Of a stretch of DNA of 33,036 nucleotides, positions 10,161 through 27,994 are shown piece after piece (the first letter of the stretch is position 1; every line of letters begins with the position of its first letter). Position numbers and translations under genes: made by a program. This stretch comes from an uncultured Pseudomonadota bacterium. Its GTDB lineage: Bacteria; Myxococcota_A; UBA796; UBA9615. The stretch covers positions 1 through 33,036 of the forward strand of contig CALAGR010000479.1 in the NCBI GenBank assembly GCA_937891735.1, written 5' to 3'. The notes below the pieces were generated by a model. The model saw only the letters and a program-made list of their open reading frames with translations. It did not search any database and was not told the origin of the DNA.

Positions 10161-11672
<1,512 letters not shown>

Positions 11673-18134: not shown

Positions 18135-20531
18135 CTACTCGCCCCAGAGCAGCTGGTTGAGGTCTCCCGGCTCCAGCAGACCCAGCGCCCCATGGGCCGC
18201 GCTGTCCTCGTCGAAGGCCGTGTGCTCCCCGTGTTCGTCGAGATCTGCGCTCCAGCGCGCGACCAGCAGCGGAACCGGGTCCGGCAGGTGGTCGCCGGTG
18301 TGGGAGTCCGTGCCGTGGTCCGCGGAGACCACGATTCGCAGCCCCTCCGAGATCTCGGGGTGGGCGCGGAGCATCCGCCCCAGCGCCGCGTCGGTGGCCT
18401 CGACGAACGCCTGCTTCTCCAGCGGGCGCCGGTCGTGGGCCGCGATGTCGGTTCCCTTCAGGTGCACGACGACCAGCCCGCGCCGCCCCAGCAGCGTGGC
18501 CGCCGCGTCGAACTTGCCGTCGATGTCCGTGTCCAGGTTGGCCGTCATGCCGGGACGGTGCACGGGCTGGAGCCCGAGGGCGCGGGCCACGCCCTGGGCC
18601 GTCGAGCAGCCGGTCACCATCGCCGCGTCCAGCGGGGAGAACGCCTGGGGCGCCAGGGCATGGCCCGAGCTTGCCCCGCGCGTGATCAGGCAGTTCGCGG
18701 GCATGAGCCCTCGCCGGGCGCGCTGGGCGTTGAGCGGGTGGGCCGCGAGGTTGCGGGAGACCACCGCCATGAGCTCGGTCAGGGCCGCCGCGGTGCGCTC
18801 GGCGCCGTCGCTCCCGTCCAGCGCCTGGCAGGGCTGGATGCGCTGATCGAGGGCGCTCGTGCCGGGGTCCGTGTCGCTGACCTCCTCGGAGAGGCCGTGG
18901 CCCCGGAGCATCACGACGACGCGGTGCTCCTGCGCTGGAAAGACGGAGCCCCGGATCTGGCCCGACAACGGCACGTTGCGCAGCGCCGCGAGCAGGTCGG
19001 AGGTGCCTTCGCGGATCCGCCCGGCGCGCCGGTCCACGAGCTCGCCCGAGGGCGACAGCGTCGCGAGGTTCCCCCGGAACACGATCGCGTCGGCGGACAC
19101 CCGGATCCCCAGCCCCATCGCCTCCAGCAGTCCCCGGCGCACGGGCGGGCCCGGGTCCGCCTGCGCTGCCAGCAGCGACATGAGGCCCTCGTCGGTCTCC
19201 GGGAGCGGGTTGCGGCCGGTGCCGGTCTGGATGCGACCCTGGCCGCCGACCGAGGCGAGCAGCTCCAGCGTCGGAGTCTTCGCCGCCCCGAGGGGCGTCA
19301 GGCCGCCCAGGGCCGCGTTGGGACGATCCGCCAGGCCGTCGAGGATCACGAACAGGGTGCGTGGAGTCAGGGGCCGGCGCTCCGGCGCGGGCTGCGTGGA
19401 CGCCCCGAACTCCAGGGTGCGGGAGAGCACGTCGATCATCTGATCGACCGTCGAGTCGAGATCGGCGTTGGGGATCACCACCGAGCCGTGGGTCTCCGCG
19501 TCGGCGAGCAGGTCCTCGTGGATCCAGCGCACCGCCTGGAACGAGTCGAGGTACGCGTCCGGCTGGCGCTGCGGCTGCTTGAGGGCCCGGATCGGGAAGC
19601 GTTCGCGGTGCGCCTTCGAGCTCGGTACGGCGAGCAGGATCCCCGCCACGACGGCGTCCACGTCGGCCGGCACGTAGTTGGTGAACGGCGGCCGGAGATG
19701 GGTGCCCTCCACGACCATGGACGCGGCCTCCCGGCCGGCCCGACGCACCAGCGCGCGGATCCCCACCGCGACCTGATCGGCCTGCTGGTGAAAGCCCGCC
19801 AGCACCCGCTCCTGGGGATCTGACAGCGCGTCCTTGCCCAGCGCCATGCCCCGGAAGCTGTGGTCGTGCAGGCCGGGCACCACCTCGCGCGACAACACCG
19901 AGCGCATCGCTTCCCGGACCATGTCCGTGCTCGTGACCGACGAGATCCCCAGGCGGAAGGCCAGCTCGGTGGCCAGGGTGCTCTTGCCCGTGCCCGTCGC
20001 GCCCCCGATGAGGACCACGACGGGTCGGTCGGAGCGGCGGATCGACGCCGTGAGAAGGTAGCGCCGGGCGGCCCGCTCGCCGAACTGGGAGGCCAGGACC
20101 TCGGACACCAGGGCCTCGGTCTGGGCCTCATCGACGGTGCCCAGGGGCAGGCCGTCCAGCCGGGCCTCCACCTCCCCGGTCAGGGCGAGCGCGTCGGCAG
20201 GATCGAGCCCCGCGGTGATGGCGAATCGCAGCAGCCGGTTTCTCGCGAACGACACGGGCCCCGTCGCGGGCCGCGCGCGCTCGGGGCCTGCGCCCTCAGA
20301 GGGGCTCGGGGCGTGCATGGCGGCGATGGCCTCGATGCGCGCTTCCAGATCCTCGGTGGTGATCTCCGCGACCCCGCGCAGGGCCTCCCTGAGCTGTGCG
20401 GAGCCGGCGAACGCGTCGTCCATGGGCACGCCGCGAGCGAGCAGCGCAGAGGTGATCATCCCGGTCTGGAAGCGCCAGGTCCCTTCGGACCCGACGACCA
20501 GCGTGCGTTTGCTTCGCTTCTTGCTGCCCAT
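18135..20531 (-). CDS. Fusion protein: 2-phosphoglycerate kinase-like (ATP-cone plus P-loop kinase) and ApgM-type 2,3-bisphosphoglycerate-independent phosphoglycerate mutase
   Basis: N-terminal half: SFARNRLLRFAITAGLDPADALALTGEVEARL (ATP-cone-like), VVVLIGGATGTGKSTLATELAFRLGISSVTSTDMVREAMRSVLSREVVPGLHDHSF (2PGK-like). C-terminal half: TLFVILDGLADRPNAALGGLTPLGAAKTPTLELLAS, LLEAMGLGIRVSADAIVFRGNLATLSPSGELVDRRAGRI, VVHLKGTDIAAHDRRPLEKQ, VVSADHGTDSHTGDHLPDPVPLLV (ApgM-like). Start chosen at MGSKKRSKRTL (20531). Confidence 0.82.
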   Translation of the reverse strand: MGSKKRSKRTLVVGSEGTWRFQTGMITSALLARGVPMDDAFAGSAQLREALRGVAEITTEDLEARIEAIAAMHAPSPSEGAGPERARPATGPVSFARNRLLRFAITAGLDPADALALTGEVEARLDGLPLGTVDEAQTEALVSEVLASQFGERAARRYLLTASIRRSDRPVVVLIGGATGTGKSTLATELAFRLGISSVTSTDMVREAMRSVLSREVVPGLHDHSFRGMALGKDALSDPQERVLAGFHQQADQVAVGIRALVRRAGREAASMVVEGTHLRPPFTNYVPADVDAVVAGILLAVPSSKAHRERFPIRALKQPQRQPDAYLDSFQAVRWIHEDLLADAETHGSVVIPNADLDSTVDQMIDVLSRTLEFGASTQPAPERRPLTPRTLFVILDGLADRPNAALGGLTPLGAAKTPTLELLASVGGQGRIQTGTGRNPLPETDEGLMSLLAAQADPGPPVRRGLLEAMGLGIRVSADAIVFRGNLATLSPSGELVDRRAGRIREGTSDLLAALRNVPLSGQIRGSVFPAQEHRVVVMLRGHGLSEEVSDTDPGTSALDQRIQPCQALDGSDGAERTAAALTELMAVVSRNLAAHPLNAQRARRGLMPANCLITRGASSGHALAPQAFSPLDAAMVTGCSTAQGVARALGLQPVHRPGMTANLDTDIDGKFDAAATLLGRRGLVVVHLKGTDIAAHDRRPLEKQAFVEATDAALGRMLRAHPEISEGLRIVVSADHGTDSHTGDHLPDPVPLLVARWSADLDEHGEHTAFDEDSAAHGALGLLEPGDLNQLLWGE

Positions 20532-20703: not shown

Positions 20704-23166
<2,463 letters not shown>

Positions 23167-23178
23167 CTCCGGAGAACC

Positions 23179-24681
23179 ATGATGCGCCGCCTGCGGTTGG
23201 CAGTCCTGTTGCCCTTGCTGCTGCTGTGCCTGGACCCGGGTCCGGCGCACGCGGACGCGAGCTTTCGCCCGGCGAGCGTGGGTGGCTACTTCCGGATCAT
23301 GGCCCGCCCGGACTTCCAGGGCGGCAGCGGACGGCTGGGTCACTGGAACCTGTACGGACGCCTGCTCAACGAGGGCCCGTGGGCCGCGCTGGAGCTGCGC
23401 CTGCATCTGCTGCCCCAGGAGTCTGGTAGCCGCGCGGTCTGGACGAACCTGCACCTGCGCATCGAAGGCGGCTCCGTGCGCAACGCCGAGGCGTCCGGCG
23501 GCAAGCTCGGTGAGTTCTCCTTCAGCCAGCTGTACGTCGAGGCCGGCAACGTGCTCCTGGAGGGGGTGACCTGGCGGCTGGGTACGCTGGAGTACTGGTA
23601 CGGCGACCTGGGCTTGTACGACATGCGGCCCGCGGAGCTGTTCTTCCAGACCCTGGGCGTGTCCGCGAAGCTGCAGAAGGGGCCGGTGGAGCTGCTCCTG
23701 GGCTTTGGGGACTCCGGGTTCGCCATCGGGGGCTTTGAGTACTCCACGGTCCTGACCGCGGGTGGGGCGGTTCGGCTGCGCGCGCCCAAGCACCTGGAGA
23801 TCGGGCTCGGCGGGCAGGTCAACTACGAGCCGAAGGTGCAGGGCAACCGCAACGCCCCCTACGACACGCCCAACCTGGACTACGAGGACTGGACCCGGGG
23901 CGAGATCGTGGAGCGGTACCTCGAGGCGCGCCCCGAGCAGGAGGACTACTTCCCCAAGCCCGTCGCCACGAACTCCATGAGCTTCAAGGCGGTGGGGTAC
24001 CTGGGCTTCGGCGACCTCGGGCCCCTGAAGTGGAACTCCTTGTTCGTCAACATCCAGCGGCGCCACCACGACAAGTCCACCGTCGAGACCTTCGAGGGGC
24101 GCGAGTACGACCTGTTCGTGAAGTCGCTGACCGATGAGCGGTACGAGTTCAACCTGGGCAACGAGATGCAGCTCGAGATCGTGCCCGGGCGCTTCGACAT
24201 CGCCTGGGCGCTGCTGTATGGCACCCACTGGGACGCGGACAACGACGTCGCGCCGAGCGACTTCGACCGGGTGATCATGTCCACCGTGCTGCGCATGCAG
24301 GTCTACCTGTCTCCCGTGCTGCACCTGCTCGTCGAGTCCAGCGTGGCCCGGGAGAAGAGCCGCAACGGCAACGCCTACCGAAACCACGCGGACTCCATGT
24401 TCGAGTCGTCCGGGGGCCGGCCCGACCAGCGCGGCCTGGAGTTCGGCGACGCCGACACGCGCGTCACCTGGCAGGGGAAGGGCGGCGTCGTGCTGAGCCC
24501 TCTGGGAGCGGGCATCTACGTGCGCCCCTCGCTGCGCCTCCTGTACGGCGTGCAGTACTCCACGATGAACAACGCGTTCGGCAACAGCTTCGTCGAGACC
24601 CCGTCGCAGTACGCCCTGTTCGACACCGTCGAGCGTCACTGGCACCACGTGATCGCGCTCGAAGCGGAGGCCTGGTTTTGA
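23179..24681 (+). CDS. Outer-membrane beta-barrel, maltoporin/carbohydrate-porin-like
   Basis: Signal peptide MMRRLRLAVLLPLLLLCLDPGPAHA; alternating beta-strand pattern; C-terminal aromatic residue (EAEAWF); SQLYVEAGNVLLEGVTWRLGTLEYWYGDLGLYDMRP resembles LamB-type porins; sits in a glucan cluster. Confidence 0.65.
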   Translation: MMRRLRLAVLLPLLLLCLDPGPAHADASFRPASVGGYFRIMARPDFQGGSGRLGHWNLYGRLLNEGPWAALELRLHLLPQESGSRAVWTNLHLRIEGGSVRNAEASGGKLGEFSFSQLYVEAGNVLLEGVTWRLGTLEYWYGDLGLYDMRPAELFFQTLGVSAKLQKGPVELLLGFGDSGFAIGGFEYSTVLTAGGAVRLRAPKHLEIGLGGQVNYEPKVQGNRNAPYDTPNLDYEDWTRGEIVERYLEARPEQEDYFPKPVATNSMSFKAVGYLGFGDLGPLKWNSLFVNIQRRHHDKSTVETFEGREYDLFVKSLTDERYEFNLGNEMQLEIVPGRFDIAWALLYGTHWDADNDVAPSDFDRVIMSTVLRMQVYLSPVLHLLVESSVAREKSRNGNAYRNHADSMFESSGGRPDQRGLEFGDADTRVTWQGKGGVVLSPLGAGIYVRPSLRLLYGVQYSTMNNAFGNSFVETPSQYALFDTVERHWHHVIALEAEAWF

Positions 24682-26900
24682 TCCGTCGAGCTCTGCCGCT
24701 GTTGATTCTGATCCTCGCGAGCGGCTGCCTGCGCCGGGCGGAGCTGGTGCGCGCGCCGGCGCCGACGGCCGTGGCGGCGGTGTTCCTGTTCGATCAGGAG
24801 GACGACTCCGCGGTCCTGGAGGCACCCGAGTCCCTCGTCCGGGCGTGCACGTCGCTGCTCCAGGGGCACAACCTGCTGGTGGGGGCGCTGCCGACGGAGC
24901 AGTGGGCGGATGCGTTCGCGACCAGGCGCAGCACCCGTCAGCGCATGCTGTCCCTCTTCGAGCAGACGGACCAGGACGTGGTGCTGCTGGTCGAGACGCG
25001 GGCCCGGTTCGGCACCCTCATAGAGGGGCGCTATCGATGGACGGTGCCCGTGCAGCTGACCCTGGCCCGGAGGGGTGGCGAGGACTTCCCGGTTCAGGCG
25101 AGCGTGGAGGTGCCGGTCTTCCTGCGGTTCGCCCACGAGGGTGGGCTGGAGGCGGTGGAGGCTGCGAGCCCGACGATCACGCGGCGGCTGACCCGCATGG
25201 CGGACGAGCTCCTGGCCGAGGGGAGCAGGATCGGAGCCCGGCGTCGTCCGGCGGCTCCGGATCGGATGGCGGCGCGGGTCCCAGCCTCTGCCGACGCGAT
25301 CTACTTCGCCCTGCTGGACCGGCACCGCAACGGCGATCCGAGCAACGACGGCGACGTGGATCGGGCGGATCCCCAGGCGTTTCACGGCGGCGATCTGCGG
25401 GGCGTGATCGACGATCTCGACCGCCTCGCGGGCATGGGCTTTGCCAGCGTCTGGCTCAGCCCCGTGTGGCGCACGCGGGACGAGCGGATCGGACCCTGGG
25501 GGGCGTTTCACGGGTACTGGGTGCAGGATCCGGGGGCGGTCGATCCCCGCTTTGGCACCGCGGACGAGCTCGCCGAGCTGAGCGACGCCCTTCGGGACCG
25601 GGGCATGGGGCTGATCCTCGACATGGTGACCAACCACGTGGCCCCGGGCAGCCCGCTGCTCACGGAGCACCCCGACTGGTTTCATCACAACGGCGACATC
25701 ATCGACTGGAACGACCCGGTGCAGGTCGTGATCAACGACGTGCATGGCCTTCCGGATCTGGCCCAGGAGCTCCCCGCGGTGCGCGACTGGCTCGTGGGGG
25801 ACGGACAGGCCTGGATCGAGCGTGTGCATCCGGAGGGGTTCCGGCTCGACGCGGTGCGCCACGTGGGGCTCGACTTCTGGGCGGACTACAACCGCTCGAT
25901 GCGCGCAGTGGGGGGTGAGGATCTGACGCTGGTGGGCGAGCTCTTCGACGGGGATCCGGCCACGGTCGATCACTACTGGAGGACCGGCGGGTTCAGCGGG
26001 ATGTTCGACTTCCCGCTGCACTACGCGCTGCTCGATGTGCTGTGCGGGGATGCACCGGTGGGCAAGCTCGCCTCGGTGCTGGCCCAGGATCGCCACCACC
26101 CGGATCCAAGCCAGCTCGTGACCTTCCTCGACAACCACGACCTGCCCCGCGTCGCGTCGCGCTGCACGCCGGACGAGCTCGGTGGGGCGCTCACCGCCCT
26201 GCTGAGCCTGCGGGGGCGGCCCGCGATCACCTGGGGCACCGAGGCGGGACTGGACGGCGCCGAGGAGCCAGCCAACCGCGCGGACTTCCCCTGGGGGGAG
26301 GCTCGGCCCTGGGAGAAGCAGATCGTGCACGGGCTGAGCTTGCGCGCCGCGAATCCGGCCCTGCGATCCGCCCACCGGGAGGTCCTGTTCCTCGGAGACG
26401 CGCAGGTCGCGTTCCTGCAGCGAGCTCCGGGGGGCGACGACGCCGCGGTCCTGGCCGTCAACCGCGCAGATCGGGATTGGTCGATGGACCTGCCCAGCGG
26501 AGAGTGGCGGGACACCTCCCGGGGGGCCGTCGTGCGCAGCCCCGTCAACGTGCCCGCGCGGTCGGTGCTGCGGTTGCTGGGCCAGACGACCTACGCCCGG
26601 CTGGCGGGTCCGGCGAGCGTGTCGTTCCGCGTGACCGGGGCGCCCCTCGCCGACGGCGACGTGCTGCTCCTGGTGGGCAGCGGGCCGGAGCTCGGCAACT
26701 GGGACCCGATGGCCGGGCTCCTCGCGTCGGGACGGAGCGCCGCGACGCTGGCGACCGCGCAGGTGCCCGCTGGGTTCGTCATGGAGTACAAGTTCGTCGT
26801 GCTCGCCGCTGACGGCACCGTCACCTGGGAGCAGCGGGGCAACCGCTACCTGCTCGCCGAACCCGGCGCCTCTGAGATCGCCGCAACCTGGAGCGTCTGA
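24678..26900 (+). CDS. Lipoprotein alpha-amylase family protein (GH13) with an N-terminal domain of unknown function and a C-terminal CBM20 starch-binding domain
   Basis: TTG start overlapping the upstream TGA; LLILILASGCLRR lipobox; DRHRNGDPSNDGDVDRADPQAFHGGDLRGVIDDLD, LDMVTNHVAPGSPL, EGFRLDAVRHV, LVGELFDG, FLDNHDLPR; C-terminal VSFRVTGAPLADGDVLLLVGSGPELGNWDPMAG...EYKFVVLAADGTVTWEQRGNR (CBM20-like). Confidence 0.92.
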   Translation: MIRRALPLLILILASGCLRRAELVRAPAPTAVAAVFLFDQEDDSAVLEAPESLVRACTSLLQGHNLLVGALPTEQWADAFATRRSTRQRMLSLFEQTDQDVVLLVETRARFGTLIEGRYRWTVPVQLTLARRGGEDFPVQASVEVPVFLRFAHEGGLEAVEAASPTITRRLTRMADELLAEGSRIGARRRPAAPDRMAARVPASADAIYFALLDRHRNGDPSNDGDVDRADPQAFHGGDLRGVIDDLDRLAGMGFASVWLSPVWRTRDERIGPWGAFHGYWVQDPGAVDPRFGTADELAELSDALRDRGMGLILDMVTNHVAPGSPLLTEHPDWFHHNGDIIDWNDPVQVVINDVHGLPDLAQELPAVRDWLVGDGQAWIERVHPEGFRLDAVRHVGLDFWADYNRSMRAVGGEDLTLVGELFDGDPATVDHYWRTGGFSGMFDFPLHYALLDVLCGDAPVGKLASVLAQDRHHPDPSQLVTFLDNHDLPRVASRCTPDELGGALTALLSLRGRPAITWGTEAGLDGAEEPANRADFPWGEARPWEKQIVHGLSLRAANPALRSAHREVLFLGDAQVAFLQRAPGGDDAAVLAVNRADRDWSMDLPSGEWRDTSRGAVVRSPVNVPARSVLRLLGQTTYARLAGPASVSFRVTGAPLADGDVLLLVGSGPELGNWDPMAGLLASGRSAATLATAQVPAGFVMEYKFVVLAADGTVTWEQRGNRYLLAEPGASEIAATWSV

Positions 26901-27994
26901 TGGCCACCGTCGAACTCGACAAGGTCGGCAAGCTCTACGGCGCCACCCGCGCCATCTCGGACGTGTCCCTGTCGGTCGCGCAAGGGGAGTTTCTGGTGCT
27001 CGTGGGGCCGTCCGGCTGCGGCAAGTCCACGCTGCTGCGCATGGTCGCGGGGCTGGAGGAGATCAGCGAAGGGGAGCTCCGGATCGGCGGCGCGCGCGCC
27101 AACGAGAAGGCACCGCGGGACCGGGACGTGGCGATGGTGTTCCAGAGCTACGCGCTGTATCCGCACATGACGGTCCGGGACAACATGGCCTTCGGGCTCA
27201 AGGTGCGGAAGCAGCCGAAGGCCGAGATCGATCGACTGGTCGCCGACGCCGCCCGCATGCTGGAGCTGGAGCCGTTGCTGGACCGCCTGCCCAAGGCCAT
27301 GTCGGGCGGTCAGCGGCAGCGTGTCGCGATGGGTCGGGCGATCGTGCGGCAGCCGCAGGTGTTCCTGTTCGACGAGCCCCTGTCCAACCTCGACGCCGCC
27401 CTGCGCACGCAGATGCGGGGCGAGCTCAAGGCGCTGCACGCACAGCTCGGCGCCACGATGCTGTACGTGACCCACGACCAGGTCGAAGCGATGACGCTGG
27501 CGGATCGGATCGCGGTGCTGCGTCTGGGGGTGCTGCAGCAAGTGGGCACCCCCGTGGAGCTGTACGAGCGCCCCGCGAACCGGTTCGTCGCCGGCTTCAT
27601 CGGCTCACCCGCCATGAACTTCCTCGAGGGCCGCATCGTGGGCGGCGCGTTCGAGCACGGAGGGGTGACGGTGCCGCTGGGCCAGGCCATCCCGGCCTCC
27701 GAGGGGACCGACGTCGTGCTCGGGGTGCGGCCCCACGGGCTGGAGTTGAGCACCGATGGGGCTGGCTTTGCAGGGCGGGTGGGGCTCGTCGAGCTGACCG
27801 GCTGGGAGACCCATGTGCACGTGGACGTCGCTGGCGTCGAGCTGGTGGTGAGAGTCGAGACAGCAGGCTCCGCGGGCCGCATCCGCCAGGGTGACGAGGT
27901 CCGGGTGCGACCCAAGGCGGGAGCTGCCTACCTGTTCGAGCCAGGAGCCACCGGCGCGGCGTTGCTCCACCCCGGCGGCGCCGCGGCGTCCTAG
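26900..27994 (+). CDS. malK: ABC transporter ATP-binding protein, MalK/UgpC (CUT1) family
   Basis: LVGPSGCGKSTLLRMVAGLEEISEGELRIGG; VFQSYALYPHMTVRDNMAFGLKVR; MSGGQRQRVAMGRAIVRQPQVFLFDEPLSNLDAALRTQMRGELK; VTHDQVEAMTLADRIAVL; TOBE-like C-terminus. ATG overlaps the amylase stop (TGATG). Confidence 0.93.
   Translation: MATVELDKVGKLYGATRAISDVSLSVAQGEFLVLVGPSGCGKSTLLRMVAGLEEISEGELRIGGARANEKAPRDRDVAMVFQSYALYPHMTVRDNMAFGLKVRKQPKAEIDRLVADAARMLELEPLLDRLPKAMSGGQRQRVAMGRAIVRQPQVFLFDEPLSNLDAALRTQMRGELKALHAQLGATMLYVTHDQVEAMTLADRIAVLRLGVLQQVGTPVELYERPANRFVAGFIGSPAMNFLEGRIVGGAFEHGGVTVPLGQAIPASEGTDVVLGVRPHGLELSTDGAGFAGRVGLVELTGWETHVHVDVAGVELVVRVETAGSAGRIRQGDEVRVRPKAGAAYLFEPGATGAALLHPGGAAAS

Follow-up and report, generated by a model that had tools for sequence, protein, structure and literature searches.

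2-Phosphoglycerate kinase (2PGK), known from Methanothermus fervidus and its relatives (PRK04220/PRK12337, COG2074), and the route on which it works together with cyclic 2,3-diphosphoglycerate (cDPG) synthetase have so far been regarded as a thermoprotection pathway of archaea. cDPG has been described as occurring exclusively in hyperthermophilic methanogens (PMC10690619), a similar restriction is given elsewhere (PMC12136491), and a review discusses the compound as a store of carbon and phosphate (PMC1224877). In rice, a 2PGK homologue influences seed phytic acid and total phosphorus, and LPA1 is a proposed inositol monophosphate kinase (PMC4844318). Our analysis of a 33,036-nucleotide stretch of DNA from an uncultured bacterium that its named relatives place in the Myxococcota (contig CALAGR010000479.1; here called the window) revealed a single gene in which a 2PGK-family kinase is joined to an enzyme resembling ApgM, the cofactor-independent phosphoglycerate mutase of archaeal type; an open-access literature search found no published account of such a fusion. 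Compared with the M. fervidus-type kinase, the fused protein has the P-loop kinase fold in common and matches the family across the entire catalytic domain and a portion of the N-terminal region; it differs by the joined ApgM-like enzyme, by scores below the equivalog level, by a genome without cDPG synthetase and by the location of its relatives' fusion genes near phosphate-uptake genes. With the cDPG pathway it would share the expected first step, and a homologous kinase in Thermoleophilia has a cDPG synthetase homologue as its coupled partner, whereas the bacterial class of the fusion has no such synthetase. The initial annotation had seen none in the window, and this absence extended to all 71 genomes of the class, the same query being positive in 4/4 control genomes.

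The fusion is confirmed as a genuine, conserved gene, with an N half of the 2PGK family and an ApgM-like C half. The minus strand carries an open frame of 881 codons (20780 to 18135), and the conserved start, an ATG at 20531, gives a protein of 798 amino acids (Table 1); the frame of about this length and all of the motifs quoted in the initial annotation were present. Family searches, in which the NCBIfam scores for both halves all lay under the curated cut-offs, matched residues 177 to 457 of the 881-residue frame to the 2PGK model NF003259 (E = 3e-66; 224 bits against a cut-off of 343), residues 94 to 457 to a second 2PGK model, NF008994 (E = 2e-67; 228 against 603), and residues 474 to 877 to the ApgM model TIGR00306 (E = 1e-78; 265 bits against 320), bearing out the two families that had been proposed; the Pfam models found in the C half were PF10143 and PF01676. 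Full-length or near-full-length fusions with 47 to 66% identity and no internal stops occur in ten further genomes of the same class. These independent genomes rule out an assembly join or a frameshift as the source of the fusion, a doubt that the initial annotation had itself raised. Any match to the fusion was found in 16 of the 71 class genomes, and more fusion loci were seen in a member of the Polyangiaceae (L021), in L022/L126, and in L125. A model of the full-length protein (mean pLDDT, 80.5; pTM, 0.54) was good for each half and poorly informed about how the halves pack. Elsewhere in the window, an ordinary-looking gene at 10161-11672 encodes an ATP synthase alpha/beta-family subunit and probably belongs, together with its neighbors, to an atp operon.

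Table 1. Coordinates of the fused gene, its parts and the divergent neighbouring genes in the window
Feature	Position	Strand	Basis or remark
Fused gene, 798 aa: 2PGK-family kinase and Thr-type ApgM-like enzyme	18135..20531	(-)	Stop codon at 18135-18137
N-terminal regulatory-looking region, residues ~8-77	20300..20510	(-)	Alignment and secondary structure of the model
P-loop kinase core, 2PGK type, residues ~170-370	19422..20024	(-)	Family search, alignment, model
ApgM-like half, residues ~391-798	18138..19361	(-)	Family searches, structure matches, alignment
Thr446 codon, position of the ApgM catalytic Ser	19194..19196	(-)	Alignment and model
Starch/maltodextrin genes (CBM48 amylase, LamB-type porin, amylase with CBM20, MalK-type ATPase)	20728..27994	(+)	Divergent from the fusion; outside the system

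The C half matched solved archaeal ApgM structures (2zkt, E = 1e-46), and a Foldseek search with the full model returned 2zkt, 3idd, and 3kd8 at the top, with phosphopentomutase and iPGM next. Its likeness to ApgM (TIGR00306; PDB 2zkt, 3kd8, and 3idd) extends from the fold to the metal-ligand positions D398, D695, H699, D738, H739, and H748, which are invariant wherever the sequence covers them, and to the substrate arginines of DRRAGR, HR, and RGA, which are the same as in 2zkt and 3kd8, again wherever the sequence covers; we take the ligand and substrate roles of these residues to be those known from iPGM and ApgM. The fused halves differ from ApgM by a Thr in place of the catalytic Ser, found in 13/13 fused proteins aligned with 2zkt and 3kd8, by loss of the GSDTAH..GYDP motif around that residue, and by forming a clade of their own together with one split Thiotrichales gene. 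This split homologue (L025) and a fusion fragment (L013) also have Thr at this position, and each of the 22 unfused ApgM-type sequences in the comparison keeps the catalytic Ser; L084, whose gene is an unfused ApgM-type gene with Ser, was counted outside the fused set. In the model, Thr446 forms the N-terminus of a predicted helix (446-454), and the nucleophile in this superfamily is expected at the start of a helix. Because the catalytic Ser is missing and the score is below the family cut-off, the C half should, judging by its sequence, be labeled ApgM-like rather than ApgM: the initial annotation had the family right, but the unchanged ApgM chemistry that it assumed was not supported by the comparison. 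As a separate observation, an ApgM-type subgroup of this phylum (L147-L149, L015, and L084) is without the DRRAGR and RGA residues; L147-L149 and the gene of L015 from genome G027 pass the TIGR00306 cut-off despite this different substrate site, so that their automatic naming as phosphoglycerate mutases may be wrong.

Of the 14 fusion loci, 11 have phosphate-uptake genes (pstSCAB-phoU, or DUF47/Pit) next to the fused gene. The row pstS-phoU-pstC-pstA-pstB-pstB adjoins it in L076 (same contig as L020), L075, L081, and L125; a partial pst set, broken off at the contig end, accompanies it in L077 and L021; and DUF47, Pit, or both are found next to it in L072, L073 (from the window's genus), L074, L079, and L080. 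Phosphate neighbors are missing from three fusion loci: the one in the window and, on short contigs, L078 and L126/L022. The arrangement is tightest in L081, where pstS-phoU-pstC-pstA-pstB-pstB-porin-fusion run on one strand with a 3-bp gap ahead of the fusion, and where the porin resembles an L075 protein matching phosphate-selective porin O/P. The sole PhoU gene found in genomes G061, G062, G064, G003, and G203 is the neighbor of the fusion, and the same is true of the sole Pit gene found in G059, G011, and G067; in the window's genome, phoU is on a separate contig, and no Pit gene (PHO4 match) was found. Among GpmI loci of the same class, given the same treatment as controls, none of 20 was phosphate linked (Fisher p = 1e-6, a value that ignores kinship and, through the shared ancestry of loci, overstates their independence). 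The unfused 2PGK genes of the same phylum were considered as a second phosphate-linked set and ruled out, with 1 linked locus out of 18 (L123, Ppx). Because the modules and gene orders vary from locus to locus, the phosphate linkage of the fusion must have arisen or been kept repeatedly. Such linkage is evidence of a shared process, not of a reaction.

Sequences upstream from the fusion point in the same direction at some of the loci. A three-half-site scan (TGACA at 11-bp steps), drawn up from general Pho-box knowledge after some of the sequences had been viewed, gave a shuffle p of <0.035 upstream from the fusion in 6 of 11 regions, with Pho-box-like repeats in L075, L021, L076, L077, L073, and L125; the repeats were found in 0/12 GpmI control regions and not in the window, and the plain two-half-site Pho-box consensus was nowhere significant. 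These putative repeats count as supporting evidence only.

In the kinase tree, the fused proteins cluster in a single clade apart from every other group (100/100), and their ApgM-like halves do likewise in the ApgM tree (100/100), consistent with a single fusion event in Myxococcota. In the Thiotrichales locus L025, two separate genes with an 8-bp overlap encode the kinase and the Thr-type ApgM-like protein, within the row ppx-ppk2-2PGK-ApgM-like (L025:2553-8323; ppk2 is of the two-domain kind), which gives the split form a link to polyphosphate. The ApgM-like protein of this locus is sister to the fused clade (100/99), and its kinase clusters with other unfused kinases, apart from the fused ones. 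Because genes that are fused in one lineage are coupled in another, this arrangement provides good evidence that the kinase and ApgM-like activities work together. The split form, like the link to phosphate uptake, lay beyond what the window by itself could reveal.

Our preferred reading, to which we assign a probability of about 0.58, is that the fusion encodes a phosphoglycerate enzyme with two functions, which serves phosphate homeostasis by turning over 2,3-bisphosphoglycerate (2,3-BPG). We infer the substrate, product, direction, and regulation of this enzyme as follows: the kinase half would convert ATP and 2-phosphoglycerate (2PG) to 2,3-BPG, and the ApgM-like half, with Thr as its nucleophile, would work on this same pool of phosphoglycerates, its most likely task being the interconversion of 3-phosphoglycerate (3PG) and 2PG, whereby 3PG could be drawn into, and regained from, the 2,3-BPG pool. 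The 2,3-BPG would be a soluble phosphate store or a phosphate-status metabolite, made and regained in step with phosphate uptake through Pst or Pit; a phosphate store was among the possibilities named in the initial annotation, and that idea gained support here. If this reading is true, 2PGK-based metabolism would be a widespread form of bacterial phosphate handling, for which Myxococcota would have a two-headed enzyme of their own and soil Actinobacteria probably a cDPG pathway. The reading would also give 2,3-BPG a directly testable role in GpmI-using bacteria, which have no known need of it, and the phosphate-uptake loci of bacteria would gain one more kind of gene in addition to those for PhoU, DUF47, and polyphosphate enzymes.

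A different division of labor, in which an opposed kinase and phosphatase share one chain as in PFK-2/FBPase-2 (PFKFB), is the nearest rival, although we consider it less probable. The C half would then be a 2,3-BPG phosphatase, and the enzyme would control the amount of 2,3-BPG, which would act as a signal or buffer. The change from Ser to Thr and the lost GSDTAH..GYDP motif, with the substrate residues kept, would fit an altered fate of the phosphoenzyme, and the gene adjacent to the kinase elsewhere belongs to the histidine-phosphatase family (in the gammaproteobacterial locus L027, which also has Pit) or encodes the phosphatase GlpX (in Thermoleophilia). However, the change from Ser to Thr alone decides neither for a mutase nor for a phosphatase, because phosphopentomutase, a mutase of the same superfamily, uses Thr. 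The coupled partner in the Glassbacteria locus L023 (2097-5052), where the two genes overlap, is moreover a GpmI-type mutase, of a family other than ApgM, and a kinase and phosphatase on one chain would require regulation, of which none was seen. As for PFKFB itself, it too joins a P-loop kinase to a phosphoryl-transfer domain working on the same metabolite pool, and the kinase half has a weak match to PFKFB2 in fold, but the C half of the fusion belongs to the alkaline phosphatase superfamily and that of PFKFB to the histidine phosphatase superfamily; the two are analogous in design, and their architectures are not homologous. A broader picture that we offer tentatively is that 2,3-BPG, in its cyclic form in Actinobacteria, may be a phosphate store or status signal in several bacterial phyla, and that in Myxococcota it may be made and unmade by one kinase/phosphatase encoded with Pst and Pit, as a design counterpart of PFK-2/FBPase-2 or of the inositol pyrophosphate kinase/phosphatases.

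The Walker A motif of the kinase half, GGATGTGKST, occupies residues 176 to 185, and G177, G180, G182, K183, T202, D203, R206, and R210 are invariant in an alignment of 22 fused, unfused, and archaeal-type sequences. Residues ~8 to 77 resemble the first of two N-terminal repeats in unfused 2PGKs and are ATP-cone-like by position and secondary structure; no match to the Pfam ATP-cone (PF03477) was reported for the fused protein. The kinase half as modeled by AlphaFold2 (mean pLDDT, 86) had gluconate and nucleotide kinases as its fold matches, and a sequence search with this half found no solved 2PGK structure. The initial annotation had considered that another P-loop kinase family might fit better; sequence and fold searches returned generic NMP and gluconate kinase matches, none better than the 2PGK models, which were by far the best kinase families. 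The N half is a 2PGK-family protein with 2PG as its predicted substrate.

It is rather improbable that the kinase half acts on a substrate other than 2PG, such as an inositol phosphate or another phosphorylated acid, with the C half acting on the product. The wider family is certainly varied, as seen from the distant match of the kinase half to a mevalonate-3-phosphate 5-kinase model (NF008996, E = 3e-10) and from rice LPA1 (PMC4844318), and the kinase scores under the 2PGK equivalog cut-off. Yet 2PGK is the best family match by a wide margin, the fused partner retains the substrate residues of phosphoglycerate mutases, and related bacterial kinases have cDPG synthetase or a GpmI-type mutase as their neighbors.

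A canonical GpmI (401 bits, above the cut-off) is encoded elsewhere in the same genome, one of the 62 of 71 class genomes in which GpmI passes this threshold. Because of this enzyme, the fusion is not the housekeeping mutase and is not needed for glycolysis in this genome. GpmA over the family cut-off was found neither in this genome nor in the 11 other fusion genomes. A glycolytic enzyme, with the mutase half working in glycolysis and the kinase half providing GpmA with 2,3-BPG as its cofactor, had been proposed in the initial annotation with an eye to the neighboring starch genes and is very improbable: both families are phosphoglycerate enzymes and the starch-degrading genes do adjoin the fusion in the window, but canonical GpmI is present, no GpmA passes the cut-off, the fusion is patchily distributed in its class, and no starch genes were seen at the fusion loci of the same-genus genome and the other relatives examined.

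2PGK itself turned out not to be the bacterial rarity that it had been taken for, since a match at E < 1e-40 was found in 66 of the 284 genomes sampled from the phylum, 10 with the fusion and 56 without it. Within the phylum, the unfused 2PGKs make up a clade of their own. In other phyla, an unfused kinase occurs with pst in a planctomycetotal locus (L024), and all 10 Thermoleophilia-type loci with upstream sequence (L028-L036 and L039) have a cDPG synthetase homologue, the kinase, and then GlpX; DUF47-Pit is close by in two of the Thermoleophilia-type loci (L032 and L034). The synthetase homologue of L032 matched the M. fervidus enzyme (PDB 8ork) at E = 3e-62. A cDPG pathway is, by this gene content, probable in mesophilic Thermoleophilia-type bacteria. 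L032:4760-7841 is an example of such a locus from these MAGs, with genes for the cDPG synthetase homologue, 2PGK, and the GlpX FBPase.

Poseidoniales kinases, which sit on a long branch of the kinase tree, were rejected as phosphate linked, their neighbors being type II secretion-like, aldehyde dehydrogenase, and enoyl-CoA hydratase genes. The unfused 2PGK genes of other Myxococcota families (L107-L124) lie inside a conserved gene block whose members include genes for M48 and S49 peptidases, RlmN, and a ParA-type protein with a glycogen-binding domain (CBM).
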